A DNA stretch of 56,050 nucleotides from Alphaproteobacteria bacterium (GTDB taxonomy: Bacteria > Pseudomonadota > Alphaproteobacteria > UBA7985 > JAUIBT01): assembly GCA_030428565.1 (NCBI GenBank), contig JAUIDR010000021.1, positions 1 to 56,050 on the forward strand, read 5' to 3'. A model generated the notes under the pieces. It worked only from the letters and a program-made list of their open reading frames with translations, did not search any database and had not been told where the DNA came from. This document shows, piece after piece, positions 27,555-50,128 of the stretch; within the stretch, counting starts at the first letter, position 1, and every line of letters starts with the position of its first letter. Made by a program: the position numbers and the translations under genes.

Positions 27555-28571
27555 ATGACTCTCACATCGCAATCCTACATCGAATCCCGTATCGGGGCCC
27601 TGTTGGGCCGTTGGGAGGGGCGCTGGTTTGATATCTCGGGCGATGGCCAGTGCGCAGCTGTCAGCGAAGAACCGCTGCCCGAACGACTGCACGCGATGAC
27701 GCTGCCGGATCGCGACGGAGCACAAGAACACCTAATCGTCACCCACGGCAACGGTATGACCGGTGCCACCCACGCCAATCTGGCGCTGGCGCTGGCCGAG
27801 GCTAGCCCCAACATTCAGCCCTGGTTGGTCGATACCCGCGGTCACGGCCGCTCCACCTTGTCGCTCGATCCTGCCAAGCTGCGCGATTTCAAGCGCTATA
27901 GCGCGGATCTCAAAGCTTTGTGCCAGCGCTTGCCGGGGCGTTTGCACTTCATGGGGCATTCCATGGGCGCGCTGCTGGCCATGCGCGAAGCGACCGACCT
28001 GTGCGCCAAGACACCCGAACGGGTGGGCTCCTTAACGCTGCTAGAGCCGACCTTGCTGTCGCGCCCGCTCTATGCCGCGATGGTTGTCGGGCACTATATC
28101 CCGTCGTTGATGCGTCGGCTCAATCCGTTGATTAAGCCCGCCGCCCGCCGCCGTCCGGCCTGGGAAAGCTGGGCGCAAATGTTCGCCTCCTACGAGAACA
28201 AAGAGCTGTTCGCCGCCTTCGACCCTGACAGCTTTGCGGGCTATTTGGCAACGGGGATCAAGGCCAGCCAATTCGGTGTCGCCCTGTCTTGTGCACCCGC
28301 CTTGGAAGCGGCCAATTTTCAGTGGCTCGACCTCAGTCTGTGGGGCACCATCAAGCGGCGTCGCAGTATTCGCGATGTGCCGACATTTATGGCTTACGGC
28401 AAGCTGACCGGCTCGACCGTCGCGCCTGGGCGAGTCGGCGAAGTCGAATCGCTGTTCCGCAATTTGACGGTGCTGGGGGTCGAGGATGCCGACCACTTCC
28501 TCCCCATGACACACGTTGAACTCTTGCAGCGCGAACTGCTGCGCTTTCATCAATCCCTGCCGCAAGGCTAG
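27555..28571 (+). CDS. Alpha/beta hydrolase
   Basis: A serine hydrolase of the alpha/beta fold, 338 residues. The oxyanion motif is THGNG (near residue 74), the nucleophile elbow is GHSMG (about residues 136-140), and the final histidine is in VEDADHFLPMTH. The cap region between (residues 160-270) is basic and helical. The substrate cannot be inferred. It ends 25 bp before aroA, so the two may be cotranscribed. No clear ribosome site precedes the ATG. Confidence 0.8.
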   Translation: MTLTSQSYIESRIGALLGRWEGRWFDISGDGQCAAVSEEPLPERLHAMTLPDRDGAQEHLIVTHGNGMTGATHANLALALAEASPNIQPWLVDTRGHGRSTLSLDPAKLRDFKRYSADLKALCQRLPGRLHFMGHSMGALLAMREATDLCAKTPERVGSLTLLEPTLLSRPLYAAMVVGHYIPSLMRRLNPLIKPAARRRPAWESWAQMFASYENKELFAAFDPDSFAGYLATGIKASQFGVALSCAPALEAANFQWLDLSLWGTIKRRRSIRDVPTFMAYGKLTGSTVAPGRVGEVESLFRNLTVLGVEDADHFLPMTHVELLQRELLRFHQSLPQG

Positions 28572-28596
28572 GGCGATTTCGGATAGACCAAGACCC

Positions 28597-29871
28597 GTGA
28601 CCAGCCTAACCCCGGCCACAGCCGCTTCAGCGACCTTGACCCCGCCCAGCCAGCCCATGAGCGGCCAGCTTCGTCTGCCGGGCTCCAAGTCCATCACTAA
28701 CCGCGCTCTGCTGTTAGCGGCGCTAGCCAAGGGGCGCAGCGCGCTGACGGGCGCCCTGACCAGTGATGATACGCGCCATATGTCCACCGCGCTTCGCGCC
28801 ATGGGCGTACAGGTCGAACAACCCGACGAGACGCGTTTTATCGTCGAGGGCGACGGACAGCTGAGGCCCGCTGATGCGCCCTTGTTTCTGGGCAACGCAG
28901 GCACGGCGACGCGCTTTATCACGGCTGCTGTGGCGGTCCAGCAAGGGCGTTTCGTGGTGGATGGCGACGAACACATGCGTAAGCGCCCCATCGCGCCGCT
29001 GGTGGAGGCGCTCAACCGTTTGGGCGTTGCGGCCAGCGCGCCCAGCCAATGCCCGCCGGTGACTATTGAGGCGACCGGTGATTTTGCCAGCGATAGCGTT
29101 GAAATCGACGGCGGCTTATCCAGTCAGTACGTCTCGGCCATTTTGATGGCGGCGGCTTGCCTACCAAAGCCGTTTGATTTGCAGCTGGCCGGGGCCGACA
29201 TTGGCGCCAAGGGCTATATTGATATCACTCTGGCGGTCATGCGTGCGTTCGGCGCGGTCGTCGATCAGCCGAGCCTTGGCCATTGGCGCTTGCAAGGTGG
29301 TGGCTACCAGGCGTGCGATTACGCCATTGAGCCCGACGCTTCGGCGGCGACCTACCTGTGGGCCGCCGAGCGCATGAGCGGCGGTAAAATTGACTTAGGC
29401 GTAGATCCCAAAGCCATGAGCCAGCCCGATGCCAAGGCTTGGCAGGTCATTCAGGCCTGGCCCCAGATGCCAGCGGTCATCGACGGCAGCCAAATGCAGG
29501 ACGCCATTCCGACGCTGGCGGTGCTGGCAGCCTTCAATGAAACGCCAGTGCGTTTTGTCGGAATCGCCAATCTGCGGGTCAAAGAGTGCGACCGTACAGC
29601 GGCCTGTTGTGCAGAGCTAAATAAGCTGAAGCCTGGTCTGGCCGAGGAAATTGGTGACGATTTGCTGGTGCATAGCGACCCCAGTCTAAAGGGGCAGGCG
29701 TCTGACGCTAAGATCCACACCTACGCCGATCATCGCATCGCTATGAGCTTTGCTCTGGCGGGAATTTTCATGCCGGGCCTGACCATCTTGGACCCCGGCT
29801 GCGTGGCCAAGACCTATCCAAACTACTGGCGGGATATGGCCGCGCTGGGCTTGGGCGTTGCGCTCGCTTAA
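28597..29871 (+). CDS. aroA: 3-phosphoshikimate 1-carboxyvinyltransferase (EPSP synthase)
   Basis: It transfers enolpyruvate from PEP to shikimate 3-phosphate in the shikimate pathway. Conserved blocks are LPGSKSITNRALLLAALAKG, LGNAGTATRF, HMRKRPIAPLV, SSQYVSAILMAA, NLRVKECDRT, YADHRIAMSFAL and DPGCVAKTYPNYW. The spacing and the GNAGTA form fit the E. coli-like class I enzyme rather than the class II type found in Agrobacterium CP4. I chose the GTG at 28597; the frame extends upstream into the hydrolase gene, but that part is not conserved. The first 17 residues are low complexity. Confidence 0.93.
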   Translation: MTSLTPATAASATLTPPSQPMSGQLRLPGSKSITNRALLLAALAKGRSALTGALTSDDTRHMSTALRAMGVQVEQPDETRFIVEGDGQLRPADAPLFLGNAGTATRFITAAVAVQQGRFVVDGDEHMRKRPIAPLVEALNRLGVAASAPSQCPPVTIEATGDFASDSVEIDGGLSSQYVSAILMAAACLPKPFDLQLAGADIGAKGYIDITLAVMRAFGAVVDQPSLGHWRLQGGGYQACDYAIEPDASAATYLWAAERMSGGKIDLGVDPKAMSQPDAKAWQVIQAWPQMPAVIDGSQMQDAIPTLAVLAAFNETPVRFVGIANLRVKECDRTAACCAELNKLKPGLAEEIGDDLLVHSDPSLKGQASDAKIHTYADHRIAMSFALAGIFMPGLTILDPGCVAKTYPNYWRDMAALGLGVALA

Positions 29872-29908
29872 ATCCAAGGTCAGAGCTTGTGTCGACGCGG
29901 CTCCACGG

Positions 29909-30382
29909 CTAACCGCGCAGCAAGCGCTTGAGTTTGCGTTGCTTTTCGGCCTCTGCATCGGCGATGTTCTGGCTCACCACTTGGGCCACATGTGCGAAAA
30001 ACTCTGCCGAAAAACGCGCATAAGCTCCCTGATGGCTGGGCGGCGGGGCAAAGGGCTCGAACAGGGGGCTGGGCCAGACGACACGGTTGGCCCCTGTTGT
30101 CACCACCCAGGACTTTTCTTTCAGACCCGCTCGTTGACGCTCTAGGTGGGGTACTGCCAGACCTTTATCGGGCTCGCGCTGTTTTTTCGTGCTGATGGCC
30201 AACAGCATGAGCTGAAAACGCCCCGCGCCCAGCGGCTCGCGGTGCAGAACCAGCACGGGACGCACTTTGTCGGCATGATTCGGGGTACGGGCAAAGTTGC
30301 GATTGACCCAGACATAGCGATAACAGACGAGATCGCCCGCTTTGGGAGGCAGGGCGGGCATGCCGGAGGGCGGGCTTGTCAC
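29909..30382 (-). CDS. PemK/MazF-like toxin-family protein
   Basis: The 157-residue product has the PemK/MazF barrel pattern: PKAGDLVCYRYVW at the start, KVRPVLVL after a long first loop, then LMLLAIST and AGLKEKSWVVTTGANRVVWPSP. This matches the longer, chromosomal PemK-like family rather than classic 110-residue MazF. MazF-type toxins are mRNA interferases; activity here is unproven. The GTG start overlaps the stop of the upstream gene in a GTGA junction, which suggests a coupled partner. It is the last gene of a chaC-led operon. Confidence 0.65.
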   Translation of the reverse strand: MTSPPSGMPALPPKAGDLVCYRYVWVNRNFARTPNHADKVRPVLVLHREPLGAGRFQLMLLAISTKKQREPDKGLAVPHLERQRAGLKEKSWVVTTGANRVVWPSPLFEPFAPPPSHQGAYARFSAEFFAHVAQVVSQNIADAEAEKQRKLKRLLRG

Positions 30383-30654
30383 GCGCGGGGCTCCGGCTCG
30401 TCGCTTGTGGCGTCGGCGGCGACTTGCGCTTGCTTGGCTTGCTGGTGTAGGGCGTCTTGTTCTTCGGCGCTCAGTTCGGCCCAGCTAAGGGCGTGGCGCT
30501 TGTAGGCCAGAAGCTCTGCGTAATCAGAAAAGGGCAGTAAGACATGGCGAGTGCCGCCTCGGTCCTTGAGCCAAAGACGCTTGGGGCCGCGTGCGCTTAG
30601 GATGCGCGGCAGACGGTTCAGGGGCGCGCGCTGCCAAATCTTCTTGGTCTTCAC
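30379..30654 (-). CDS. Small protein, possible antitoxin to the PemK-like protein
   Basis: The 91-residue product is basic at the N-terminus, has a central stretch RHVLLPFSDYAELLAYKRH that resembles the core of Phd/YefM-type antitoxins, and an acidic, Ala-rich C-terminal tail. Its GTG start overlaps the chaC stop (GTGA at 30651-30654) and its stop overlaps the next start, so three genes are translationally coupled. The antitoxin role is inferred from position, size and composition; no DNA-binding motif is clear. Confidence 0.5.
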   Translation of the reverse strand: MKTKKIWQRAPLNRLPRILSARGPKRLWLKDRGGTRHVLLPFSDYAELLAYKRHALSWAELSAEEQDALHQQAKQAQVAADATSDEPEPRA

Positions 30655-31367
30655 GGCCGCCCGGAATGGCCCTGCTGGGCATCTGTGGTCTCACGCGCGC
30701 TGTGCAATTGGCCTTCCAGCTGCTCCAAGTAATCGCAAACGATGCCTTCATCGCGCAGACTGGCGAGCGTTTGGGTGAAGTATTCAAAGCTGGTGCCCAG
30801 CATGCCTTCACCGGTCAGCAACATGTGCAGTTTCTGTTTGGGGCAAATGGCGCCGGTGTAGCGCCCACAATTGGTATCAATCACAAAGCTCAAAAGCGGT
30901 GTGGACTGGCCGTCGATCTCGCCTTCTAGCCAGAGCGGGCGGTATGACCCCGACAGCATCTCACGCCGCCACAACAAGAACAGCTCGTGTTCCAGATTGT
31001 GCGGGCGCACCCGAAATGCGCGGCCTTCGGTTTGTCCGCCCTCATCCAAGGCCAATACCAGGCCGGGTTTTTCCGGGCTGCCACGGCCAAAGCGGGTCTT
31101 GAGGCAAAAGCGACGGCGGTAGCCGCGTACCACGGCTGGGCGTTTGAGGTCGAAATCCAACAAGGGGTTCCAGATCAACGAGCCGTAGCCGAAGACCCAA
31201 ACGCCTTGCGCAATATCCAGATGCGGGGGCGCTTCGGCCAAGGTGGTCTTGACTGAGCTTCGAAGCTGGTCGTCGCTCCACAGGGGGTAGTCGAGTTTCT
31301 CGCCCAAGGCGTTGGCTTCTTGCCGCCAGGCATCGGAAGCTAGAAACTCTTTGGTCAGCGCAGCCAT
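30651..31367 (-). CDS. chaC: ChaC-type gamma-glutamylcyclotransferase
   Basis: It cleaves glutathione to 5-oxoproline and Cys-Gly in the cytoplasm. Residues 58-66 have the family signature VFGYGSLIW (substrate loop YGSL), followed by RPAVVRGYRRRFCL and LALDEGGQTEGRAFRV, where the acidic residue in LDEGG (E109) is the likely catalytic one. The length of 238 residues is normal, with an N-terminal helix. It leads the coupled three-gene unit with the possible antitoxin and the PemK-like protein. Confidence 0.9.
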   Translation of the reverse strand: MAALTKEFLASDAWRQEANALGEKLDYPLWSDDQLRSSVKTTLAEAPPHLDIAQGVWVFGYGSLIWNPLLDFDLKRPAVVRGYRRRFCLKTRFGRGSPEKPGLVLALDEGGQTEGRAFRVRPHNLEHELFLLWRREMLSGSYRPLWLEGEIDGQSTPLLSFVIDTNCGRYTGAICPKQKLHMLLTGEGMLGTSFEYFTQTLASLRDEGIVCDYLEQLEGQLHSARETTDAQQGHSGRP

Positions 31368-31472
31368 GGCGCTCGGTGTCCTTTCAGGTCAGGGTCAGAT
31401 CGGGGCAGGCCACGGCCCGCCGCAAACATAGTACGCGTATGAGAGCGAGCCCGGTGGTGCGATTGCTAGACG

Positions 31473-32135
31473 CTAGGCGTCGATCTCTACGCTCTTGTCC
31501 TGCCAACCGGCAGCCAGCGCGGCGGATTTGGCTTCAGCGGCCAGTTCACGGATTTTGTTCCAATTTTGATCCGCGATCAAGTCCTGCGGCAGCATCCATG
31601 AGCCGCCTGCGCAGACCACGTTGGGACAAGCCATGTAGTCGGCTAAATTGCTGAGGCTGACGCCGCCGGTGGGGCAGAAGACTAGTCCTGCAAGTGGGCT
31701 GGCCAGGGCCTTGATTGCCTTGGCGCCGCCCGACGCTTCGGCGGGGAAGAATTTTAAAAATTGATAGCCAAGATTGTTGGCGTTCATGGCTTCGGTGGCA
31801 CTGGCAACGCCAGGCAGCAGAGGCAGGCCCGCATCTTGGGCGGCTTGCAACAGCGTCGCCGGTGAGCCCGGCGAGACGCCAAAGGTGGCCCCGGCCTCTA
31901 GCGCGGCGTGGACATCGTCGCTGTGGCGTAGCGTGCCAGCGCCGACAATGGCCCCTTTGACGTCTTGAGCCATAGCACGGATAGCCTCTAGGGCTACCGG
32001 CGTGCGCAAGGTTACTTCCAATACCGGCAAGCCGCCGTCGACCAGGGCTTGCCCCAAAGGTACCGCTTCCTCTAGGCGCTCAATCATGATTACGGGGATG
32101 ATGGGATGGCGGGCGATTGAGCGCAGTACTGTCAT
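31473..32135 (-). CDS. eda: KDPG/KHG aldolase
   Basis: It cleaves 2-keto-3-deoxy-6-phosphogluconate to pyruvate and glyceraldehyde 3-phosphate in the Entner-Doudoroff pathway. This is a 220-residue class I barrel with the catalytic glutamate in LEVTLRT (E40), the Schiff-base lysine in FLKFFPAEA (K128), and GAGTL, GVSPG and CPTGGVS. AGGAC precedes the ATG. Neither edd nor other pathway genes are near. It lies 25 bp upstream of msrA on the opposite side and may share its transcript. Confidence 0.94.
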   Translation of the reverse strand: MTVLRSIARHPIIPVIMIERLEEAVPLGQALVDGGLPVLEVTLRTPVALEAIRAMAQDVKGAIVGAGTLRHSDDVHAALEAGATFGVSPGSPATLLQAAQDAGLPLLPGVASATEAMNANNLGYQFLKFFPAEASGGAKAIKALASPLAGLVFCPTGGVSLSNLADYMACPNVVCAGGSWMLPQDLIADQNWNKIRELAAEAKSAALAAGWQDKSVEIDA

Positions 32136-32160
32136 AGTGTCCTAAGGTCTCTGGCAGGAA

Positions 32161-32859
32161 TTATTCTTTGTTGAGGCCCCGGTGTGCGTCTTGGCCCCAG
32201 AGCTGCTTGACCCTTTTATCGCGTCCGCAGGCAAAGCGGTAGAAGTTATAGCGACGCGGGCTCTTGGTATAAAAGTCCTGGTGGTAGTCTTCGGCCGCAT
32301 AAAAGGGCGCGGCATCCAAAATGGGCGTCACAATCGGCATGCCCTGGTCGACCAGAGCTTGCTTGGAAGCTTCGGCAATCTGGCGCTCTTCCGGTGATGC
32401 CACAAAAACGGCGGTCTTGTAAGAATGGCCGCGGTCGCAAAATTGCCCGCCGGGGTCGGTGGGATCGACCGAATGCCAAAAGGCATCCAGGACCTGGGCA
32501 AAGCTGACCACATCGGCGTCATAGTCGATCTTGACGACCTCATAGTGGCCCGTACCGCCCGCAGAGACCTGTTTATAGCTCGGATTGTCAACGTGGCCGC
32601 CCGCAAAGCCGCTGGTGGTTGCGACAACGCCGGGCAAGTGATCCATGTCGCTCTCAAGGCACCAAAAACAACCACCTGCCAGCACGACCGAGGCCATGTC
32701 CATCGGCATGGTGGTGGATTGAGCCTGGGCTTGGGTCTTGCTGGCGGGCATGGCCAACCATGCCAATCCCGCGCTTGCGATGAGCCCAAAGCCGAGTACG
32801 GCCGCCAGGCGCAGGGGGCGGGTAAAGTGAAGAATGCTGTGTTTGAATCTATTTTCCAT
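32161..32859 (-). CDS. msrA: Exported peptide methionine-(S)-sulfoxide reductase
   Basis: It repairs oxidised methionine in proteins. The catalytic motif GCFWC lies at residues 63-67 (C64), followed by GYSGG-like [25 protein letters not shown] and [12 protein letters not shown], with the usual AEDYHQDF near the end. Residues 17-45 form a signal peptide or anchor ([20 protein letters not shown], then ASKTQAQAQ), so the enzyme works in the periplasm. No MsrB domain or gene is adjacent. I chose the ATG at 32859, with GGAG 10 bases upstream; the longer frame has 36 unconserved residues. Confidence 0.9.
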
Positions 32860-33078
32860 GAGGGGTAGCTCCGTTTTTTGTTGTGGGAGATCTGGAGCCC
32901 TTGTGCACGCCGCCTTTACTTTAGGCAAAGCAAGCCCGCTCAAGTTTTCGTAAGGCTTTTGTAACAAAACCGCAAAGCCGCCATGTTTGCCGCGACGCGC
33001 TGTCCCGGCTATTGGTCCCCGGCACGGCGTTGTTTGCGGTGAATATCCGAACGAGCGCTAGAGGCGCACCGCAGGCTT

Positions 33079-34398
33079 TTAGACCAGCGGGAAGCGGTCG
33101 TACCACAGGTCAGCTTTCAAGCCGCGCTCCTGGCCATAGGCGAACAAGGTGTTCATGTAGTCGGCCTTAAAGCTGTTGGTCTCAGAGGATTGGGACATTT
33201 CTTGCGGTAAGAATGTCAGGCGCGCTGGTGTCTCGAAAAACTGCGCGATGCGGAATATTTCCTTAACGTCGCCTGCGGTGCGGTTCTTCAGCAAGGTCTG
33301 CAGCGAGGTATTGGCCAGGTTCAAGGCTCGGGCGCGTACCGGATCGTAGGTCGGCAAAATCGGCCCGTTAATGACCATGTAGATGTTAAAGCGCATCTCG
33401 GGAGCGACTTGGCGCACGGTTGATAAGCTGTCTTGCGCACCAGGGAACAGGTACAGGCCCTGGGTAACAGCGCCGTCAACGTGGAATTCATCGTAGGCCT
33501 GCCCGTCCGCTACAACCGAAAAGCGCACCGGTGGGAACAGGCCCGGCAGGGCAGCGCTGGCCAACAATATCTTACGCACTAAGGCGTAGCGCGAGGGGTG
33601 GCGAGACGCCGCTATGCCGGTGATGTCCCAAGCGACCGGGCGCTGTTGATCCAAATTTGAGGTGATGACCATAAAGCGCCGCCCTGCAAAGTAGGCCCGG
33701 CCCATCAGATCAATCATGGCATCGTCAACTTGCGCTTCAAGCTGGGTGGCCAGCTTGTTGGCGCTGGATAGACTTGGCCCGCCGAACAGCAAGGAGGTTG
33801 GCCGCAGCGCCAAGATATCCGAAAAAGCGTTGCTGGTGAAAGCGGCTTGAATGCGCTTGTCGTAGTTATGCCCCAGTATGACGCTGGCCCCGACGATGGC
33901 GCCCGCCGAAATTCCACTGACTAAATCAAACACTGGACGGTCGCCGCGTTGCCCCCAGCCTACCATGAGGCCGCCACCGAAAGCCCCCTCGCTGGAGCCG
34001 CCAGAAAAGGTAATGGCCTGCAGGGGAGCGGTCGTCGCGAGCCCCAGATTACGCCGCTGCTTGGTCCAAGCGTCCAACCAGACCGCAAAATCTTGGCTCG
34101 GGCGGTCGGCAAAAAAGCGCGTGTTAGGGAAGGTTGGAATACTGGCCTTATCGATCAACTCCGCTGGCACCGGCTCTCGCTTGCCGTAGTTACGGGTGAT
34201 AATCTGGCTGTTTGGTTGAGCGGGCTGACACGCGCTGAGGCTTGCCAGGCCGCTGGCGGCCAATCCTGCCGCTGCCATCCCGCGCCCGCCAAGCCGCAAG
34301 AAATCGCGCCGTGCCAACCCGCTGGATGCGGTCGTTGTCGGCGCGCTAAGATCGTCTGGTTGTTCGAAGTGAGTCAGGGGCGTTTGGCTCATGGTCAT
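33079..34398 (-). CDS. Patatin-like phospholipase, Tat-exported lipoprotein
   Basis: A patatin-family serine lipase of 439 residues. The catalytic dyad is S164 in GISAG and D308 in VDGAV, with the oxyanion glycine loop FSGGSSEGAFGGG at 131-143. Residues 30-56 are a Tat signal (RRDFLRLGG) ending in a lipobox LSAC (C57), so the mature protein should be a lipid-anchored envelope protein. The N-terminus before the twin arginine is unusually long. Its substrate, a lipid or acylated protein, is unknown. No signal overlaps the neighbouring parE. Confidence 0.85.
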   Translation of the reverse strand: MTMSQTPLTHFEQPDDLSAPTTTASSGLARRDFLRLGGRGMAAAGLAASGLASLSACQPAQPNSQIITRNYGKREPVPAELIDKASIPTFPNTRFFADRPSQDFAVWLDAWTKQRRNLGLATTAPLQAITFSGGSSEGAFGGGLMVGWGQRGDRPVFDLVSGISAGAIVGASVILGHNYDKRIQAAFTSNAFSDILALRPTSLLFGGPSLSSANKLATQLEAQVDDAMIDLMGRAYFAGRRFMVITSNLDQQRPVAWDITGIAASRHPSRYALVRKILLASAALPGLFPPVRFSVVADGQAYDEFHVDGAVTQGLYLFPGAQDSLSTVRQVAPEMRFNIYMVINGPILPTYDPVRARALNLANTSLQTLLKNRTAGDVKEIFRIAQFFETPARLTFLPQEMSQSSETNSFKADYMNTLFAYGQERGLKADLWYDRFPLV

Positions 34399-34495
34399 CT
34401 AAATGGGGATTTGGCTAGCCGATGGCTAGCCCGCGGCGAGTCTTTTGACAGTGCGAATACACCAAGGCTAGCAGCTTACCCGGCAATAGTTGACT

Positions 34496-36637
34496 CTAGA
34501 TGTCCAAATCTTCTGCAAAAGCTGCGTTTTCTTGTATGAAAGCGAAGCGGCGCTCGGGCTTTCGGCCCATGAGATCCTCGACCAACTGATCTACGTCATC
34601 ATTTTGCGCGTCGTGGTTGGCCTCATCGCTACCCACGTCAGTCCCCAGACTCGATCCCAGATTCGATTCCAGATTGGAACCCATATCTGAACCTAGGTCT
34701 GATCCCAGGGCCAAGGCCGCCGCTCGGAAATCATCCAAGCGCACCTGCAGCAGTTGGCGCGTGGCAGGATGCATGGTCGTCACCTTAAGCTGGGGCGAGG
34801 ACATCTCGCCCAGGCCTTTAAAACGCGAAATCTCGATTTTGGCATTGGGCTTAAAGGCTTCGGCGACCAACTCGTCTTTGTGATTGTCGTCGCGCGCATA
34901 GACCACCTTGCCGCCCTGGCTGAGGCGATAGAGCGGTGGCATGGCCAAGAACAGGCGGCCAGCCTCGATCAATGGCCGCATTTCACGATAGAAAAAGGTC
35001 ATGAGCAGGCTGGCAATGTGGGCGCCGTCCACATCGGCATCGGTCATAATGATGACCCGCTCATAGCGCAGATCATCCAGCTTGAATTGCCGCCCCAGAC
35101 CGACGCCCAAGGCTTGCGACAGGTCCGAGAGCTCCTGATTGGCCCGCAGCTTGTCGGCGGTGGCGCTGGCCACGTTCAAGATTTTCCCGCGAAGGGGCAG
35201 GATGGCTTGGGTCTCACGATTGCGGGCTTGCTTGGCCGATCCGCCAGCCGAATCGCCCTCGACCAAGAAAATCTCAGTATCGGCGCGATTGGCGCGCGAG
35301 CAATCCGCCAGTTTACCGGGCAGGCGCAGGCGAGATGTTGCGGTCTTACGTGCCGAGTCTTTGGCTTGGCGGCGGCGCTGGCGCTCTTCGGCGCGCAGCA
35401 CTACGTTATCCAACAGCGCTTTGGCTTCCTTGGGGTGTTGGGCCAGCCAGTGGTCCAGCTGGTCTTTGATGGCGTTGTCGACCAGGCGCGTGACATAAGA
35501 TGATGTCAGGCGATCTTTGGTCTGACCCTGAAACTGCGGGTCGCGGATGAAGACCGACAGCAGGCTGCGCGCGGCTCCCATCACATCGTCAGGGGTAATG
35601 TTGGCTGCCTTTTTATGCCCGGCCAGATCGCCAAAGCCCTTGAGGGCACGGGTCAAGCCAGAGCGCAGGCCTTGTTCGTGGGTGCCCCCCAGAGGCGTTG
35701 GAATGGTGTTACAAAAAGCGCCAACACTGGCGTCGGCCTGATCCAACCAGGCAATCGCCCACTCCATGCGGCCTTGATCGTCGGGAAAGCTCGCCTCGCC
35801 CGCGTAGAGAATAGGCGTGATCAGGCTCTCGCCGGCGACGGTCTCTTGCAGGCTGTCGGCCAAACCGCCTGGAAAGTGCAACACGGCTTCTGCGGGCGTT
35901 TTGGAATCACTGGCCAACAAGTTGGGATCGCAGGACCAGCGAATCTCGACGCCCTTTTGCAAGAAGGCCTTAGAACGGGCAAAGCGATAGAGAGCATCGG
36001 CCTTCAGTTGGGCTTTTTCGCCGAAAATTTCCGGGTCCGGATGAAAGCGTACCGAGGTGCCGCGCCGATTGGGCGCCGCGCCGACGCGCTCTAGCTTACC
36101 TTGGGGCAGGCCGCGGCTGAAGGTCTGGCGGTAAAGAGATTTATCGCGCGCGACCTCGACCACCAACAGGTCAGACAGAGCGTTTACGACAGAGATACCC
36201 ACGCCGTGCAGACCGCCCGAAGTGGCATAGGCCTTGCCCGAGAATTTGCCGCCCGAGTGCAGGGTGGTCAGGATGACTTCCAGGGCGGACTTGTCTTTAT
36301 ATTTGGGGTGCGGATCGACCGGAATCCCGCGTCCGTTGTCGACGATGGTGGCACAGCCGTCGGCGTCCAGATGGATTTTGATGTGGCTGGCATGACCGGC
36401 AACGGCCTCATCCATAGCGTTGTCGATGATTTCGGACGCTAGGTGGTGCAGGGCACGCTCATCGGTGCCGCCGACATACATACCAGGGCGCTTGCGCACG
36501 GGCTCTAAGCCTTCAAGGACTTCGATATCCTTAGCGCTGTAAGAGCCCTTGTTGTTATCGGAACTGGGGGCGGGAACCAAATCGTTGAGCAGGTCTGACA
36601 CGGCGGCAGGGCCTATAATTTCACAGGGATTAATCAC
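34496..36637 (-). CDS. parE: DNA topoisomerase IV subunit B
   Basis: ParE supplies the ATPase and TOPRIM domains of topoisomerase IV, which unlinks replicated chromosomes. The 713-residue product shows EGLEPVRKRPGMYVGGTDERALHHL, EIIDNAMDEA, DNGRGIPVD, HSGGKFSGKAYATSGGLHGVG, the TOPRIM EGDSAGGSAKQARNR and MTDADVDGAHI, and ends ERRFAFIQENA, as in ParE rather than GyrB. A 12-bp tandem repeat inserts about 30 residues of a Leu-Gly-Ser-Asp repeat near residue 640. The start is a GTG at 36637; a GTG 12 codons later is possible. Confidence 0.94.
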   Translation of the reverse strand: MINPCEIIGPAAVSDLLNDLVPAPSSDNNKGSYSAKDIEVLEGLEPVRKRPGMYVGGTDERALHHLASEIIDNAMDEAVAGHASHIKIHLDADGCATIVDNGRGIPVDPHPKYKDKSALEVILTTLHSGGKFSGKAYATSGGLHGVGISVVNALSDLLVVEVARDKSLYRQTFSRGLPQGKLERVGAAPNRRGTSVRFHPDPEIFGEKAQLKADALYRFARSKAFLQKGVEIRWSCDPNLLASDSKTPAEAVLHFPGGLADSLQETVAGESLITPILYAGEASFPDDQGRMEWAIAWLDQADASVGAFCNTIPTPLGGTHEQGLRSGLTRALKGFGDLAGHKKAANITPDDVMGAARSLLSVFIRDPQFQGQTKDRLTSSYVTRLVDNAIKDQLDHWLAQHPKEAKALLDNVVLRAEERQRRRQAKDSARKTATSRLRLPGKLADCSRANRADTEIFLVEGDSAGGSAKQARNRETQAILPLRGKILNVASATADKLRANQELSDLSQALGVGLGRQFKLDDLRYERVIIMTDADVDGAHIASLLMTFFYREMRPLIEAGRLFLAMPPLYRLSQGGKVVYARDDNHKDELVAEAFKPNAKIEISRFKGLGEMSSPQLKVTTMHPATRQLLQVRLDDFRAAALALGSDLGSDMGSNLESNLGSSLGTDVGSDEANHDAQNDDVDQLVEDLMGRKPERRFAFIQENAAFAEDLDI
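34632..34715. repeat. 12-bp tandem repeat, seven units, in parE
   Basis: Seven units in strict 12-bp phase from 34632 (consensus CCCAGATTCGAT) encode an LGSD-type repeat between the C-terminal part of the TOPRIM region and the final VEDLMGRKPERRF block of ParE. Such an insertion in a core replication enzyme is unusual. Confidence 0.92.
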
Positions 36638-41653: not shown

Positions 41654-41731
41654 GGCGATTGTAGCTCAGTTGGTTAGAGCGCCGGTTTGTGGTACCGGAG
41701 GTCGTGGGTTCGAACCCCATCAGTCGCCCCA
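41654..41731 (+). tRNA. tRNA-His (anticodon GTG)
   Basis: The acceptor stem GCGATTG/CAGTCGC, a D arm with AGTTGGTTAGA, an anticodon loop TTGTGGT (GTG) and a T arm with GGGTTCGAACCCC form a complete tRNA. The extra 5' G at 41654 faces C73, the hallmark of tRNA-His, and CCA is encoded (41729-41731). Confidence 0.97.
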
Positions 41732-42055
41732 GTCTCTCCAGAGCGCAGCTCTGGCGGCCAGAATGCACCCTAGACATTGTTATAAAGATACAGCGCTATC
41801 AAGCGGCAGCGCGCAGGCACCAGAACGCGTCAAGGCTTGGCCTCTGCAAACGGGCCTCGGCGGTTCTGTGCACCCAGGCCCAGCGCCGATGACGGGCGCG
41901 AGGTCTGGCGGTTGTTGGTTTCGGTCGTCGCCTTAGACCTACGCCAGGTCAAATGCACTCCGGGTCAAATGCACTCCGGGTCAAATGTCGCTAGGACGTC
42001 CTAACCCAAACCCGCGTGCGTGCACAGGCTCTTCCCTTGAGAGTCAGGCGCGGCC
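41732..42055. other. Gene-free stretch between tRNA-His and argC
   Basis: No gene is supported. Short overlapping frames lack start signals. It contains a 16-bp tandem repeat at 41946-41987 and nothing else I can name. I looked for a copy of the tRNA 3' end that could mark an integration site and saw none. Confidence 0.5.
41946..41987. repeat. 16-bp tandem repeat, 2.6 copies
   Basis: Units at 41946 and 41962 (consensus GGGTCAAATGCACTCC, one mismatch) and a partial third at 41978. Intergenic. Confidence 0.85.
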
Positions 42056-43090
42056 CTAGGGGAATTGTGCCGTTAGCGACAGGCCTAGGGTTTCTTCATA
42101 ACCCATCATAATATTCATGTTCTGAATGGCTTGGCCCGAGGCGCCTTTGACCAGGTTATCCTCGGCGCTGACCAAAATCGCCTGATTGGCGTTGCGATCA
42201 GCGTGCAGCGAGATCAAGACGTGATTCGAGCCGCGAACATGACGGGTCTGTGGTGCTTGGCCTTCTGCCAGGACGTGAACAAAGGGCTCGTTCTGGTAAC
42301 GGGCTTCCAGCGTCTGACGCAGCGCGGTGAGAGTAACGCCCGCGTTCATGGTGACATAGAGTGTCGAAAGGATGCCGCGGCTCATCGGCACAAGGTGCGG
42401 GGTAAAGCGGACTCGCACATCACGACCCGCAGCCTTGCTCAGCTCTTGGTCCATTTCAGGACCGTGTCTATGGGTGCCAATGCCATAAGCATGGATGCCC
42501 TCACTGACCTCAGCGAACAGCAAGCCTTCTTTGGGGCTGCGGCCTGCGCCGGTCGTGCCGGATTTAGAATCGATAATCAAATTGTCGGCGTCAATCAGCC
42601 CCTGTTCAAGCAAGGGTATCAGCGGCAGTTGCGCGCCGGTAGGAAAACAGCCCGGGTTGGCCACCACGCGCGCTTTGGCGATGGCCTCACGCTCAATCTC
42701 GCTCAGGCCATAGACCGCAGCCTTAAGCAGCTCGGGCTGTTCGTGCGGCAGGCCATAGGCGGCTTCATAAGCTTCAGGTGTGGCCAAGCGGAAATCGGCC
42801 GACAAATCAACCACGCGTACATGGTCGGGCAGACCGGCGATGATGGGCTGGGTCGTGCCGTGCGGCAGGGCGCAGAAGACAAAGTCGATATTCGACCAAT
42901 CCAGCGAATCAATTTTTACCAAGTCGGGCAGATCCAACATAGCGAACTGTGGAAAGACCTGCGCATAGGGCCTGCCCGCTTGACGCTCAGCGGTCAGGGC
43001 GCGAATCGCCACCTTTGGGTGATTGAGCAGCAGGCGCAAAAGCTCTGCACCGGTGTAACCAGATGCGCCCAGGATGGCGACGTTCAACAT
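42056..43090 (-). CDS. argC: N-acetyl-gamma-glutamyl-phosphate reductase
   Basis: It reduces N-acetylglutamyl phosphate to the semialdehyde with NADPH, the third step of arginine synthesis. The 344-residue protein has the Rossmann motif GASGYTGAELLRLLLNHP, VDLSADFRL, the catalytic VVANPGCFPTG (C148), SKSGTTGAGRSPKEG and HRHGPEMDQEL. This is the long-form (type 1) ArgC. It stands alone, 84 bp downstream of the acyltransferase gene on the same strand. Confidence 0.95.
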   Translation of the reverse strand: MLNVAILGASGYTGAELLRLLLNHPKVAIRALTAERQAGRPYAQVFPQFAMLDLPDLVKIDSLDWSNIDFVFCALPHGTTQPIIAGLPDHVRVVDLSADFRLATPEAYEAAYGLPHEQPELLKAAVYGLSEIEREAIAKARVVANPGCFPTGAQLPLIPLLEQGLIDADNLIIDSKSGTTGAGRSPKEGLLFAEVSEGIHAYGIGTHRHGPEMDQELSKAAGRDVRVRFTPHLVPMSRGILSTLYVTMNAGVTLTALRQTLEARYQNEPFVHVLAEGQAPQTRHVRGSNHVLISLHADRNANQAILVSAEDNLVKGASGQAIQNMNIMMGYEETLGLSLTAQFP

Positions 43091-43174
43091 GAGAAAGCCT
43101 TTCTTTGTTCAGCAGGAGTTGAGGGGCCTAGCACGGCCCCTAAGCGATTAGTAGGGAAGGTGAAAGGGGGGGGC

Positions 43175-44197
43175 TCAGCGGGTGGCCTCAAGCGGGGCTG
43201 GATCGCCGTCTTGTTCGCGCTGGCCTGCCAGCGGTTTGGCCGGGCGGTGGGGCCAGCCGAATTGCCCTTTGCGCACGGGCTGTCCGGACAAGCTGTAAGT
43301 CTCAACGCGCAGCATTTCCATCAACTCGGTGGGGTTGTTCTTCAATTCAGCGATGCGCTCGGGCGCGATGGGTTTGCCGACCAAGACGTGTATGTCGTCG
43401 CCGATCTTTTTGTGGACTTCGTTGAGAAACAAGGACAAGCGCAGCGTGGACGATAAATGGCTGGCGATCTGGAAAAGACGGCTGTTTTGGCCCTCAAAAT
43501 AGAGCGGAATAACGGTCGCATTCGAGCGGATGATCATTTTGGCGGTGAAATTCTTCCATTCCGGATCAATCGCGCGCCCGCGCATCCGCGCTGATGTGGA
43601 GACCGTGCCTCCTGGGAAAACGCCGATAGCGCCACCATCGGCCAGGCACTGCAGGGCTATTTTCCGGCTCTTTAGCGTAATTTCGACGCCGCGCCGCGTT
43701 TCCTCAAAGCTGATGGGCAGCAGGTTATCCTGGACTTCGGGAATTTGGCAAAGCACCGAATTGGTCAGAATCTTAAAATCAGGGCGCACCAAAGACAACA
43801 GGCGGCCAAAGCACAGCCCGTCAATGATACCGTAAGGATGATTGGCCACGAACACGGTCGGCCCTTGGCTCGGCAGACCCGCCATGCCTTCACCGCCCAC
43901 CACTAGGCTCAGCTTGAGGCGGTTGAAGGCGACTTCCCAAAAATCGCGATTATCGCTGATGTCGTCTTGGTAGTTGCTGGCGATCTTTACCAGTTTGATG
44001 CGACCGGTCAGATTCTCTAGACTGCGCACTAAGACTCGCTTGGGCTTTGACGTGACTTCGCGCGAATAGGTGATTGTGGCCGCAGGGTCGAACCCGCCCT
44101 TACTGGCCCTAACGCCGGGCTTAGCGTTTGGTCTAGCCGCAGCACGACGCTTTAGGCGTCGTTTAAGTATGCGTAAATTGCTTCTGTTTGCGGCCAT
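43175..44197 (-). CDS. Lysophospholipid acyltransferase family protein
   Basis: A PlsC-domain acyltransferase of the haemolysin/OlsA-like group (340 residues). A long basic N-terminus precedes the domain with NHPYGIIDG (N-H-x4-D motif) and FPGGTVST, then VIPLYFEGQNSRLFQIASHLS. This type includes ornithine-lipid and lysophosphatidic acid acyltransferases; the acceptor here is unknown. It differs clearly from the PlsC at 8.6 kb. No olsB-like acyltransferase gene is adjacent. Confidence 0.82.
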   Translation of the reverse strand: MAANRSNLRILKRRLKRRAAARPNAKPGVRASKGGFDPAATITYSREVTSKPKRVLVRSLENLTGRIKLVKIASNYQDDISDNRDFWEVAFNRLKLSLVVGGEGMAGLPSQGPTVFVANHPYGIIDGLCFGRLLSLVRPDFKILTNSVLCQIPEVQDNLLPISFEETRRGVEITLKSRKIALQCLADGGAIGVFPGGTVSTSARMRGRAIDPEWKNFTAKMIIRSNATVIPLYFEGQNSRLFQIASHLSSTLRLSLFLNEVHKKIGDDIHVLVGKPIAPERIAELKNNPTELMEMLRVETYSLSGQPVRKGQFGWPHRPAKPLAGQREQDGDPAPLEATR

Positions 44198-44613
44198 GTT
44201 AGCGGAAGTCCCTCAAGTGGCGACCCGATTGGTTTCTGGTGCCAGTATAGCCCTTGGCTGGCTCGGGGAAAAGACTTTGATGCGGCTCCCTCCCCGGTCG
44301 TCAGAGCCCGCGCGATCTTTCCCGGGCTGGCCGACCCAATGTTCTGTTTTGTTCACCGCAGAGCGGCGGTCGCCATTGCACCCTTTCTTGGATTAATTTT
44401 TCTATGTGGCGGGCAAAGCGCTTGCAAAACAACAGCTTTGATGGCTAGAAAGCAGCCACCTAGAATATCAAAAAAAAATTTAGCACTATAAAATTTAAAA
44501 AAACGTTCTTTTTTGTGTTGATGTTTTGTTCACGTAATGTTAGCAAAATTCACACTGGCGAAACGTCCGCTAATCAGAAATTCGCTGACACGAGATAAAA
44601 GAAGAGAAGCAAC
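44198..44613. other. AT-rich boundary between host genes and prophage
   Basis: No gene is supported. 44395-44600 is strongly AT-rich, with runs of A and T (44466-44515), in contrast to both sides. It probably holds the promoter of the first prophage gene and may mark the left boundary of the element. I found no clear repeat that could be an attachment site. Confidence 0.45.
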
Positions 44614-45408
44614 GTGACAGACACACTAGGGATCACACAACAAGCCGCCCCTTCTGCAACGGTCCTATCAAGACCCCGGCTGGTCTTGAAACCGCGCGCA
44701 GATCAGCGGAGCCGCGCGTTCGACAAGGCTTTGCCCGACCGGCAGAGCAATACTGACCGGCAGCGTAATACTGGCACGGCAACCAGCGAAAAAACCAATA
44801 CTTTTCAGCGCCCCGGAATGGGTCGGGCCGGTCTGGCGCAATCCGTTATGGAACGCACTGCATTCGATCGGGCTGCCTTGGTGCGTGCAGTCTTCCACGA
44901 ACTGCGCATGTTGCAAAACCAAGGCGCACAATTTGTCTTTGAGACCCGCTTTGAAGGCAATTTCTCTCTAACGCCCAAGAACACAGCCCAGAACACAGCC
45001 CAGAACACGGCCCATGGCGCCGCCAGGCGGGCAGAGCCACCGAAACAGGCCAACGAAAATCAAGCGCCCGCGGCGGGCCAGAGTGCCCCCGTCAAGGCGA
45101 GCCCTAACAACACGGGCGCGCAAAGCGAGCATTTCAGTTTCCTAAAGTTGGCTGATTTTTTGATTTTGGGTTCCGGCGGAAAGACTTTGCTGCTCAAGCT
45201 CAATTACAAGCGTCGCACGCAGAGCCAGCGTTCGCTCTGGCATGCACGGCTCATGACGCTGGGGCACACCATCGCCTATATCGAATGCGAGACCCCGCTG
45301 GACGGCCGAGAACGGGTGCGCCAGCTGATGGAAACGCAAGGCTATGTGCCCGAAGTGCAGATGGGCAAAGCCAACGCGCGCGCTAAGGCGCAAGCGCTGT
45401 TTGGCTAG
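44614..45408 (+). CDS. VRR-NUC-like phage protein with altered catalytic residues
   Basis: The pattern RAVFHELRMLQNQGAQFVFETRF, then LADFLILGSGGKTLLLKLN and RSLWHARLMTLGHTIAYIE, matches small phage VRR-NUC nucleases of the PD-(D/E)xK fold. D181 is kept, but where the family has E-x-K the sequence reads K-x-N (K195, N197). The N-terminal 80 residues are low complexity, and about 55 residues including a 12-bp-period NTAQ repeat interrupt the domain. The start is GTG with AAGAGAAG upstream. It is probably inactive as a nuclease; the family call is moderate. Confidence 0.5.
   Translation: MTDTLGITQQAAPSATVLSRPRLVLKPRADQRSRAFDKALPDRQSNTDRQRNTGTATSEKTNTFQRPGMGRAGLAQSVMERTAFDRAALVRAVFHELRMLQNQGAQFVFETRFEGNFSLTPKNTAQNTAQNTAHGAARRAEPPKQANENQAPAAGQSAPVKASPNNTGAQSEHFSFLKLADFLILGSGGKTLLLKLNYKRRTQSQRSLWHARLMTLGHTIAYIECETPLDGRERVRQLMETQGYVPEVQMGKANARAKAQALFG
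44980..45015. repeat. 12-bp tandem repeat, three units, in the VRR-NUC-like gene
   Basis: Units at 44980, 44992 and 45004 (consensus AACACAGCCCAG) encode an Asn-Thr-Ala-Gln repeat. The period equals that of the repeats in host genes. Confidence 0.88.
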
Positions 45409-45464
45409 CAAGGGCGCTGTCATCGCGCGCTTGTCGAAATCTATTCAAATAAACGGTTATTCTC

Positions 45465-46010
45465 ATGGCTTCTCGCCTATCTTCTGCCCGGTCGCGCGCT
45501 GGTCGGCCGCGTCGCCTTGCGCCTCTGCCATCTGTGGCCAATTCTGGCGGCGTCCCCGCCGATCCGTGTAAGCGCTGTGGTTCTGCTGTTCCGGCGCTGA
45601 GCTTAGCCCAAACCATACAAATCAATGATTTGCTGCGTTTGCCCGGTGAGCGCGATGGGCGCGCTACGCAAAGGCTGCGGGCCTTGATGCGTCTTGGCGA
45701 AGATCAGCATCGCGCGTTTTCTGGCGGCGGTGGCGTAGCCCGCTATGACGCTAGTCCGGCCGGTGCGTTGGGGCTACCAAACGACGAGCGTCACTTGCGC
45801 AAGGTCAAAGCCTTGGCGCGATACACCAAGGCGCTCAAAGCGCTGCCTCGTGACCAGCGACGGCTGGTCGAGGCCATGGTCAGCCGCACAACAGAGGAGG
45901 TCTTGTCGCTCATGCGGGCGAACAAGGTGGTTTGTTGCCGTGCGCTTGATGGTCTGTCGGCAAGTTTCGCGCAGAATCTCGCGCCGACAGTCGGGGGCAG
46001 CCATGGCTAG
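45465..46010 (+). CDS. Prophage protein of unknown function with CxxC
   Basis: I do not recognise it. The 181 residues start with an Arg/Ser-rich tail, have a single CKRC pair near residue 36, and a helical C-terminal half (LARYTKALKALPRDQRRLVEAMVSRTTEEVLSLM, then a short helix) that resembles a DNA-binding helical domain. The gene overlaps the small terminase gene by eight bases, so it belongs to the packaging operon. A regulatory or DNA-binding role is only a guess. Confidence 0.6.
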   Translation: MASRLSSARSRAGRPRRLAPLPSVANSGGVPADPCKRCGSAVPALSLAQTIQINDLLRLPGERDGRATQRLRALMRLGEDQHRAFSGGGGVARYDASPAGALGLPNDERHLRKVKALARYTKALKALPRDQRRLVEAMVSRTTEEVLSLMRANKVVCCRALDGLSASFAQNLAPTVGGSHG

Positions 46011-46380
46011 AGCCAGCAGAAAAAAGGCCCCCGCGACCAGGGACGCTGAGCGGTCTAAAACCCCGGCGAGCGAGAAGGCGCCAACGACAGGCCCGATGAC
46101 GCCGGTCGGCGCGCAAGACATCAATCTTGAGACCCAGACACGGCGCTTGCTTGAGCTCTACGCCTTGGCGCAGAGCGAGGGCAATTTGAGCGTGGCCTCG
46201 CAGAGCTTAAAGCAACTCACCGATCTACACGGTCTGGCGCGGTCCCAAAACCTGGACGAACAGAGCCTAAACGAAATGAGCGACGAAGATCTCCATGCCC
46301 AAATCCGTAGCCTTCTTAAAGAAACGGGACTTGCTGACGTTGTTGCAGACCTATCGCCAGCGCCAGCAGACGGCGATTAG
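46003..46380 (+). CDS. Probable terminase small subunit
   Basis: A 125-residue protein with a basic Lys/Arg/Pro/Thr-rich tail followed by a helical domain (TRRLLELYALAQSEGNLSVASQSLKQLTDLHGL) and an acidic end. The size, composition and position directly before the large terminase frame fit the DNA-recognition subunit of the phage packaging motor. Its ATG overlaps the end of the preceding gene, and its 3' end overlaps the reconstructed start of the large subunit by 86 bp. Confidence 0.65.
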   Translation: MARASRKKAPATRDAERSKTPASEKAPTTGPMTPVGAQDINLETQTRRLLELYALAQSEGNLSVASQSLKQLTDLHGLARSQNLDEQSLNEMSDEDLHAQIRSLLKETGLADVVADLSPAPADGD

Positions 46381-47786
46381 CCGCTATCGACCATTTGCCA
46401 AGCAGCGCCGTTTCCACGAGGCCGGGCAGGGTATGCGCGAACGCTAGCTGATGGCGGGTAATCAGCTCGGCAAGACCACTTGCGCTGGCTTTGAGGTTGC
46501 CATGCATTTGAGCGGGCAATACCCCAAATGGTGGCGAGGCAAGCGCTTTAATGCTCCGATTAATGCCTGGGCGGCCAGTGTTACGACCGAATCCACGCGC
46601 GACAATCCCCAACGCATTCTCATTGGACGCTTGGCCAAAGCTGCGCCCGAGAACCAGCCGCGCCAAGCTGCGCTGGAACGCCATTGGCTGCGCGAGGTGA
46701 CGCGGGTGCCCGGCGGCTCGGGTGCCCTGGATCAAGTCATGGTTCAACACCGTTCCGGTGGGCTGTCTTGTTTGGGCTTCAAATCCTATGCCCAGGGGCG
46801 TGAGAAGTGGCAAGGGCCAAGCCTAGACCTGGTTTGGTTCGACGAAGAACCACCTGAGGATATCTATATGGAAGGTCTGACACGGACCAACGCAACCGGC
46901 GGCATCGTCATGCTGACTTTTACGCCGCTCAAGGGTTATTCCAGCGTGGTGCAGCGCTTTTTAGGCGATCCGAAGAAAGAAGAAATCGCGGCGAATGACC
47001 ATGCAATGCGCGAGGCGCAGCATGGCTAGGCACGTTACAAAGATGACCTTGTTTGATGCCGAGCACTACAGCGAGGAGCAACGTGCAACCATTATCGAAT
47101 CCTACCCCGAATACGAGCGTCAAGCACGCGTATATGGGGAGCCGTCGGTCGGTTCTGGGCGCATTTTTCCCTTCTCAGAGGAGGTCGTAAAGTGCGATCC
47201 CTTCGCGCGCCCGCTGCATTGGCCTTTGGTTGCGGCGATGGATTTTGGCTGGGATCACCCCACGGCGGCCGTGCTGGTCTGGTGGGATCGCGAGGGCGAT
47301 GTCATGTACGTGACCCAGAGCTATCGTCAATCTCGACAGACGCCGCGCGTTCATGCCGCTGTCCTCAAGCAATGGGGGAAAGATTTTGGCGATCCGGGAC
47401 TACCCTGGGCGTGGCCGCATGATGGCCTGCAGCACGACAAGGGGTCTGGCCAGCAGTTAGCGGCGCTTTACCGCCAAGAGGGCCTGAATATGCAACCCGG
47501 ACCGGTTCAGTTTCCCGAGGGCGGCAACTCGGTCGAGGCGGGGCTCATGCTGATGTACCAGCGCCTGCAGTCGGGTCGGCTCAAGGTCTTTGCGCCCTGT
47601 ATGGATTGGTTCGAAGAATTCCGCCTCTACCACCGCAAAGACGGGCAGGTGGTCAAGCAGCAAGACGATCTTATGGCTGCTACCCGCTATGCCCTGATGG
47701 CTTTGCCTCAGGCACGGCTGCCGTCCCGCCAAGATCGCCGCCGCCAGGGGGCTTCAGACTCTCGTTTTAACCCTTTTGATTGGTGA
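46295..47786 (+). pseudogene. Terminase large subunit, broken by an amber codon and a frameshift
   Basis: Reconstructed, this is the ATPase-nuclease of a podovirus packaging motor. The frame opens with ATG at 46295 and runs YRPFAKQRRFHEAGQGMRER to a TAG at 46445-46447. The next codons give LMAGNQLGKTTCAGFEV (Walker A), then VWFDEEPPEDIY (Walker B). At 47027-47029 this frame stops, but the reading continues in the +1 frame (RHVTKMTLFDAEHY) through SLGSGRIFP-like SVGSGRIFPFS, AAMDFGWDHP and the final QQDDLMAATRYAL, ending at 47786. Total length is 3n+1, as one inserted base would give. Both lesions should block function unless they are sequencing errors. Confidence 0.85.
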
Positions 47787-47789
47787 TAT

Positions 47790-48356
47790 ATGACGATACC
47801 ATTTGAAGCGCGCCGGGCGCTGGCACAGGAAATTGACACGCTGGCGCTGCGCTTGCGAGCGGAAGATTTAAGCGAACTGCGCGCCACCGCTTTTGACGAC
47901 GATCCGGCCAGCTTAATGCAGCCCTTCAACGCGCCACAAGCCCTGCAACAGGGCTTTTTTGTTGACGGTCAACCGGTCGCCGTTTGGGCTGCGGTAGAGC
48001 AGCACCCGGGCTTGTTCATGCTAGGCTTTGTAGCTAGCGCGCAATGGCAGGCGATCGCCAAGCCCGCATCGCGCTATATCAAACAGCAAATCAAGCCCCG
48101 GCTCTTCGAGCTGGGCATGCGCAAGGGCGTTGCGCTCTCTCACGCAGACCACCGCATCGCTCATCGCTGGATGGCGTGGCTGGGCATGCGCGAAGAAGCG
48201 CGGTTTGTAGGCCACGGCAAGAATGGTGAGGACTTCCTGCTGTTCTCGATCTTTGCCGAGAGCGCCAGCGAACCCGCGCCCAAATCTGTGCCCGCGCCAG
48301 CTCCTAAGATCACGCCTGCGCCGGAACCGGAACCCATGGTGGACAGGCGGGCCTAG
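47790..48356 (+). CDS. Gp13-like / GNAT-like phage protein
   Basis: A 188-residue protein. The middle part (FFVDGQPVAVWAAVEQHPGLFMLGFVAS, then ALSHADHRIAHRWMAWLGMREEARF) resembles the small acetyltransferase-like proteins annotated as phage Gp13 family in T7-like phages. The C-terminal 35 residues are a Pro/Ala/Lys/Glu repeat tail. It starts 3 bp after the terminase frame. Its function in virions is unknown. Confidence 0.55.
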   Translation: MTIPFEARRALAQEIDTLALRLRAEDLSELRATAFDDDPASLMQPFNAPQALQQGFFVDGQPVAVWAAVEQHPGLFMLGFVASAQWQAIAKPASRYIKQQIKPRLFELGMRKGVALSHADHRIAHRWMAWLGMREEARFVGHGKNGEDFLLFSIFAESASEPAPKSVPAPAPKITPAPEPEPMVDRRA

Positions 48357-48359
48357 GCC

Positions 48360-48944: not shown

Positions 48945-48968
48945 GCACAAGAACAAAACAGGAATATC

Positions 48969-49361
48969 ATGTATATACAAACCAATATGCTGGGATCGTC
49001 TGCCGAATTCCCTGCTGGGCTGGAAGTGCGCCAAGCCGAGGAAGAAGTCTGGCGCTGTATGGTTGAGGCGCCGGCCCATCTGCGCGGCAGCCACCAGGTC
49101 ATGGACCTGCGCGACGGCCAGGTCTGCCCTGTCTTCAAGGCGGCGCGCAACCTGGTGCGCAAGCGTTGGATTCAAGTCCTGCCGTCTCGTCTGAGCCAGG
49201 CGCAGGGTTTTCTTCAGATCATGGCCAACGATGACCAGCAACTTGTCTACGAGATCGGCCGCCAAGGTGGCTGTTTTACCACTGGCTCAGGTGCAGCCCT
49301 AAGGGTTCGCGCGCTGTCGGGCCGTGTTCAATTCATTGCAGCAGAGGAGGCCTATGACTAG
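48969..49361 (+). CDS. Prophage protein of unknown function
   Basis: Not recognised. The 130-residue protein is compact, with mixed alpha/beta character (LRGSHQVMDLRDGQVCPVFKAARNLVRKRWIQV). AGGAA lies upstream of the ATG. Its stop overlaps the next start (ATGACTAG at 49354-49361). A structural role in the virion is a guess based on the neighbouring packaging and head genes. Confidence 0.55.
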   Translation: MYIQTNMLGSSAEFPAGLEVRQAEEEVWRCMVEAPAHLRGSHQVMDLRDGQVCPVFKAARNLVRKRWIQVLPSRLSQAQGFLQIMANDDQQLVYEIGRQGGCFTTGSGAALRVRALSGRVQFIAAEEAYD

Positions 49362-50067: not shown

Positions 50068-50128
50068 CGGCTCGCCTGTACGGCGGCGTTTATCACCGTC
50101 GGCCAACCCTTACAAATTGGAGATTTCC

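Follow-up and report, generated by a model that had tools for sequence, protein, structure and literature searches.

The closest described relatives of the locus considered here belong to a SMa0917-like family of Alphaproteobacteria, in which toxins of the PemK/MazF superfamily are described beside PHD antitoxins (Makarova et al. 2009, PMC2701414). The family is plasmid-enriched, Table 6 of that description giving 12 on plasmids as against 7 on chromosomes. A Phd/YefM antitoxin is also paired with a PemK-like toxin in papA-papT, on plasmid pSmeLPU88b of Sinorhizobium meliloti (PMC10194956). The pair described below resembles papA-papT in this respect but differs, as far as a comparison by description allows, in that papA-papT is plasmid-borne beside repABC, with no chaC gene named in the available part of that account. 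The MazEF/PemIK (Kid) type II systems have the predicted toxin fold and the catalytic Arg in common with our pair, whereas the antitoxins of those systems belong to the MazE (AbrB) type and not to Phd (PMC10194956, on PemI). In PemK homologues, an Arg in beta2 and a Thr in beta3 are described as the catalytic pair (PMC11130411). An autoregulated type II operon will typically have its own promoter/operator in front of the antitoxin gene, which our pair, judged by composition, appears to lack; this is a typical type II trait, and we do not use it to define the MazF-PHD family. The locus bears on a broader question, that of how selfish toxin-antitoxin modules come to serve fixed functions in their hosts.

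The window, by which we mean the whole 56,050-nt stretch of DNA analysed, is a single contig (C109) of an alphaproteobacterial genome of 3.52 Mb in 114 contigs. A first-pass annotation made from the sequence had reported three genes joined by GTGA junctions (chaC, a small protein gene and a PemK/MazF-like gene), and its coordinates, strand and gene order proved exact. The features of the locus are as follows:

28516-29871, plus strand: aroA (PF00275, 304 bits)
29909-30382, minus strand: PemK/MazF-like toxin gene, 157 aa, probably of the SMa0917-type MazF-PHD family by descent
30379-30382, minus strand: GTGA start/stop overlap of the antitoxin and toxin genes (GTGA in L010, ATGA in L011)
30379-30654, minus strand: putative diverged Phd/YefM-type antitoxin gene, 91 aa, conserved core at residues 23-73
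30651-30654, minus strand: GTGA start/stop overlap of chaC and the antitoxin gene (GTGA also in L010 and L011)
30651-31367, minus strand: chaC, gamma-glutamylcyclotransferase, 238 aa (PF04752, 111.1 bits)
31473-32135, minus strand: eda, KDPG/KHG aldolase (PF01081, 222 bits)
32161-32967, minus strand: msrA, peptide methionine sulfoxide reductase (PF01625, 183 bits)
33079-34398, minus strand: patatin-like gene, a conserved neighbour (PF01734, 66.8 bits)

The genes thus run chaC, 91-aa gene, 157-aa gene, all on the minus strand. Upstream and co-directional with them are eda, separated from chaC by 105 nt, then msrA, 25 nt from eda, and then the patatin-like gene; aroA is convergent and lies downstream, 37 nt from the end of the toxin gene. 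The order patatin-msrA-eda-chaC-small gene-toxin is common to all three species examined of an uncultured alphaproteobacterial genus, eda and msrA being neighbours in both of the others too. These two species are represented by metagenome-assembled genomes (MAGs) titled Alphaproteobacteria bacterium, with the locus on JAUIBT010000010.1 (L010) and JAUIHE010000002.1 (L011). The aroA gene is in the same place in genome G001 of the genus and on a different contig in genome G002.

Synonymous sites are close to saturated between the three species (NG86 dS 0.94-1.9). That both 4-nt overlaps have been kept across such distances, as GTGA at the first junction and as GTGA, GTGA and ATGA at the second, indicates that they are not due to chance. 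The open frames of both small genes are intact in all three species. Estimates of dN/dS by NG86 are rough at such high dS. The toxin gene has a ratio of 0.05-0.16 and the small gene one of 0.11-0.12, the latter from two of the three species pairs, since in the third the aligned stretch ran past a stop. The values of the neighbouring genes are 0.085-0.11 (chaC), 0.03-0.08 (eda) and, from a single pair, 0.07 (aroA). The chaC, antitoxin and toxin genes are all under purifying selection.

The identity given to chaC in the first-pass annotation stands: the protein matches PF04752 at 111.1 bits against a cut-off of 21, over profile positions 1-171 of 176, a full-length match like that of other ChaC gamma-glutamylcyclotransferases. 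Since gshA- and gshB-type genes are present in the genome, glutathione is probably present as well. Further ChaC-like genes, 29-37% identical to the window chaC, occur in the genus (L102 and L108 in G001, where the two genes lie in tandem, and L107 in G000), so that the chaC of this locus is not the sole one.

The 157-aa protein scores below the gathering cut-off of PF02452 PemK_toxin (17.8 bits against 23.1), yet all nine members of its family alignment (A1) match this profile at E <= 0.1, the best at 3.3e-5. As a control, the 839 ORFs of at least 40 aa in the window were searched with family profiles from which the genus had been left out. The window toxin ORF was the best match to the toxin profile (E 1e-19, positions 5-140), the next ORF being at 1.8. 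Identity to relatives outside the genus is 23-36% over the best segment. NCBIfam matched none of the three proteins, phmmer with the toxin alone gave no meaningful match among PDB sequences, and PHROGs gave a weak MazF-like match for the toxin (E 0.16). An AF2 model built from 53 sequences (mean pLDDT 89) found 26 PDB entries with Foldseek at E <= 0.001, all of them listed as MazF-type toxins and including MoxT, YdcE and an mRNA interferase, and a second structural comparison gave Z scores of up to 11.6 (108 aligned residues, 2.8 A). The protein is accordingly modelled with a MazF fold; the model used the family alignment, which makes the fold evidence dependent on the homology evidence. On both counts the PemK/MazF-like label of the first-pass annotation is borne out.

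In the family profile Arg41 (codon 30260-30262) aligns with the catalytic Arg of the RP motif of MazF chains, and Ser64 (30191-30193) with the position of the catalytic Thr of the PIT motif. In the model Arg41 lies within strand 39-52 and Ser64 ends strand 55-64. The first-pass annotation had held that absence of the MazF catalytic residues, in a protein that is not toxic, would speak against its reading; in all three species of the genus Arg41 is kept but the Thr is replaced by Ser, so that this absence applies to one residue and not to the other. Aligned MazF chains have TT or TS at the positions of residues 64-65. We considered loss of catalysis through replacement of His65 by Thr, and dropped the idea both on account of these chains and because T, S or G is present there in divergent relatives that are paired with Phd proteins.

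For the small protein the first-pass annotation had offered a possible antitoxin with weak resemblance to known ones, which profile searches resolve in favour of the Phd/YefM family. The 91-aa protein scores 17.7 bits against PF02604 PhdYeFM_antitox, below the gathering cut-off of 29.8, and all eight members of the antitoxin alignment (A2) match PF02604 at E <= 0.1 (best 2.4e-13). With the antitoxin profile built without the genus, the 91-aa ORF was again the best of the 839 (E 8.9e-5; next 0.74), the match being confined to profile positions 31-75, with the first 30 unmatched. Alignment of the genus profile with 48 family antitoxins by hhalign gave E 2.6e-5 and a probability of 75 over residues 32-70, and a PDB profile search with the antitoxin alignment returned YefM (2a6q, E 3e-6), which we take as real. 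Taken together, these matches mark the protein as a probable, strongly diverged Phd/YefM antitoxin. Within the genus the core (residues 23-73) has 41 invariant positions out of 51, the head 8 of 22 and the tail 3 of 18. Neither end can be recognised against the family, and the C-terminal motif, possibly the toxin-binding part, is gone. The AF2 model of this protein is weak (pLDDT 76, pTM 0.38, with residues 1-20 at pLDDT 50-55), and the lack of Foldseek matches to it at E <= 0.001 therefore excludes nothing. Two other kinds of match were set aside. Designed Pizza proteins in the PDB matched the antitoxin alignment through their repeats, an artefact of summed weak stretches, and in PADLOC the small protein matched a restriction-enzyme model weakly (E 0.0025) and probably by chance.

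Initial searches for toxin relatives turned up loci in other alphaproteobacteria, every one with a Phd-like ORF upstream. A scan of genome contigs then found 140 toxin relatives, of which 80 were kept for neighbourhood analysis. All 80 have a Phd-type ORF adjoining or overlapping the toxin gene, recognised by profile in 79 and by a direct test in L013, and the same holds for 33 of 34 further loci. Among the relatives fetched, the antitoxin gene precedes the toxin gene, the commonest spacing being a 4-nt overlap. These relatives fit the published description of the SMa0917 family in having a Phd partner, a toxin of the MazF superfamily and mostly alphaproteobacterial hosts, and it is by that description that we assign them to it. 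By descent, the window pair would be a diverged member of this already described MazF-PHD family, which it resembles in having a PemK/MazF toxin gene beside a PHD antitoxin gene in an alphaproteobacterium. Unlike the family, the pair has no AT-rich upstream region, is coupled to chaC and sits on a very long stem, and it has Ser for Thr, Gly for Glu97 and an unrecognisable antitoxin head and tail. The MazF-PHD family is already known; what is new is the chaC-coupled, diverged version in one genus. In this sense the overall reading of the first-pass annotation, a toxin-antitoxin-like pair coupled to chaC, is upheld in part; the pair appears to be a diverged copy of a described family.

The exception among the 34 further loci, L169, has a lone and strongly diverged toxin relative (1438-1917, end branch 3.21 in the toxin tree) beside which no Phd partner can be recognised; the ORF just upstream (1244-1486, 80 aa) has no Phd match. 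This copy is possibly another changed or decaying toxin. Elsewhere, near-identical Phd-PemK pairs (L049, L058-L060, L062, L063, L065 and L067) occur in MAGs or strains labelled Sphingomonas, Sphingobium, Novosphingobium and Microbacterium, which suggests recent transfer or, for Microbacterium, a binning error.

Among the loci sampled, the coupling to chaC is restricted to one genus. Within 4 kb of the toxin gene, chaC was found in two of the 80 loci, both from the source genus, and no such toxin-antitoxin pair lay within about 1.5 kb of chaC in any of 42 chaC loci from other genera, a few of them shortened by contig ends. Fourteen of the 42 (L093-L106) belong to the order and the other 28 (L133-L160) to the class, the class sample being drawn from the best 30 loci among matches in 151 of 289 genomes. 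The three-gene order is therefore not peculiar to one strain, being present in all three species examined of the genus, but it does not extend to the other genera sampled. Among 72,556 plasmid records the window toxin matched 12, all below 60% identity. A search of the whole genome with PF02604 and PF02452 gave no match at E <= 0.001, the window pair itself also falling below this threshold, and so there is no better-scoring pair of these types to supply a partner. The neighbourhoods of aroA, eda and chaC in eight other genomes of the order did not include one with the same flanks; no genome came to light that has these flanks and lacks the pair, so that an insertion behind chaC is neither seen directly nor dated. 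In the literature, searched by titles and the beginnings of abstracts, we found no description of a chaC/toxin-antitoxin operon, which is not proof that none exists.

The region in front of the antitoxin gene sets the genus apart. Free-standing copies of the family have an AT-rich, often palindromic stretch 5' of the antitoxin gene: over 70 distinct family loci, the 60 nt preceding the antitoxin gene are richer in AT than the genes, by an average excess of +0.18 (sd 0.07), and only one locus (L043) has a negative value, of -0.04. In the three genus loci the excess is -0.06, -0.08 and -0.10, because chaC coding sequence occupies the upstream region of the antitoxin gene. Judged by composition, then, the pair appears to have lost its own AT-rich promoter/operator, with the 3' end of chaC in its place, at all three loci. 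A promoter scan of 29850-34600 found no sigma-70-type sites (mean of 1.3 in shuffled sequences), which says little for this organism. Among the relatives, ORFs upstream of the antitoxin gene that overlap its start by 4 nt (L018, L028) or end just before it (L050) were judged by eye to be chance-looking frames.

The toxin sequence has changed markedly on the way to the genus. In 67 relatives 21 toxin positions are invariant. Twelve of these, Arg41 included, are the same in the genus and nine have changed, His65 to Thr and Phe101 to Val among them; near-invariant positions have changed also, with Ser in place of Thr64 (Thr in 96% of relatives) and Gly in place of Glu97 (97%). Motif positions will look over-invariant in this comparison, the 67 relatives having been found with two motif patterns. 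In the toxin tree (100 rows, 146 columns, bootstrap not settled; L177, L181, L182 and L185 left out) the stem of the genus measures 4.04 changes per column, compared with a median end branch of 0.22, and branches inside the genus measure 0.076-0.14. With so long a stem and so few columns the tree places the genus neither inside nor outside the family, but the combination of a long stem with short branches implies that the change either went fast or lies far back, and that it is under constraint today.

How might such an arrangement have come about? The reading that we favour, and to which we give about even weight for and against, is that a Phd/YefM-MazF pair has been captured by the msrA-eda-chaC cluster, is no longer self-regulated and most likely still consists of a toxin and an antitoxin. 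On this account an SMa0917-type Phd/YefM-MazF(PemK) pair would, in the ancestor of the genus, have ended up immediately behind chaC, lost its own promoter/operator and become translationally coupled to chaC at the end of the cluster; it would then have diverged fast, afterwards to be fixed and held by purifying selection. The MazF-fold protein would act as an RNase, restrained through binding by the core of the diverged Phd protein, and both would be translated from the same message as ChaC, coupled to it and so in step with it. With neither a DNA-binding head nor an operator, the pair should have no conditional toxin-antitoxin autorepression and its output should follow chaC expression. A shared transcript would be part of this account, against which stand the 105 nt in front of chaC, the nine changed toxin positions and the loss of the antitoxin's C-terminal motif. 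Any response to glutathione or redox state, and with it the link between redox state and growth control proposed in the first-pass annotation, is something that we can at most infer.

A possible, if rather doubtful, alternative is that the pair has been repurposed. The MazF-fold protein would then no longer be generally toxic; partnered by what remains of the Phd protein, it would bind RNA or process a narrow range of RNA targets and in this way regulate the chaC/msrA cluster or some other target. The very long stem followed by short branches within the genus is what one would expect of such a history, as are the loss of family-invariant toxin residues, the retention of the antitoxin core when head and tail are lost and the absence of any remaining operator. 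The catalytic Arg, however, is kept, the exchange of Thr for Ser is conservative, and the variation at the His65 position is shared with divergent Phd-partnered relatives, all of which speaks against this alternative.

Nor need the position behind chaC carry any meaning. The pair could be an ordinary toxin-antitoxin pair from an old, separate subfamily, lying behind chaC by chance and with no link to glutathione, the overlap with chaC serving expression only. Four-nucleotide overlaps are common in compact operons, the gene order is limited to one genus and the long-stem placement in the tree is unsure, all of which this explanation accommodates; we nevertheless think it unlikely, given that the order, both overlaps and the missing upstream region have been kept in three species despite near-saturated synonymous sites. 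It is highly improbable that we are looking at the decaying relic of a toxin-antitoxin insertion: both proteins do fall below the Pfam cut-offs and the antitoxin termini are not conserved, but the frames are open in every species and the dN/dS values of toxin and antitoxin are close to that of chaC.

Returning to capture by the chaC cluster, we would put forward, tentatively and with a good deal of doubt, a more specific form of it: that a mobile pair has been domesticated as the translationally coupled tail of chaC, without operator or DNA-binding head, and now serves msrA-eda-chaC as a post-transcriptional arm, cleaving or binding RNA, and not as an addiction module. The locus offers a before-and-after comparison. 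On one side are many free-standing relatives that have the AT-rich upstream region; on the other is one genus without it, in which the pair became joined to a metabolic gene and went through rapid change before selection came to hold it.

Elsewhere in the window, 41655-55961 is a likely prophage beside a tRNA gene (41655-41728), with terminase genes, a head-tail connector (50578-52491, PF12236) and a capsid gene (54179-55141, PF19821). Its terminase large subunit (46451-47786) is split between two overlapping frames, an N-terminal part at 46451-47029 and a C-terminal part at 46995-47786, which may represent a disrupted gene, programmed frameshifting or an error in the sequence.
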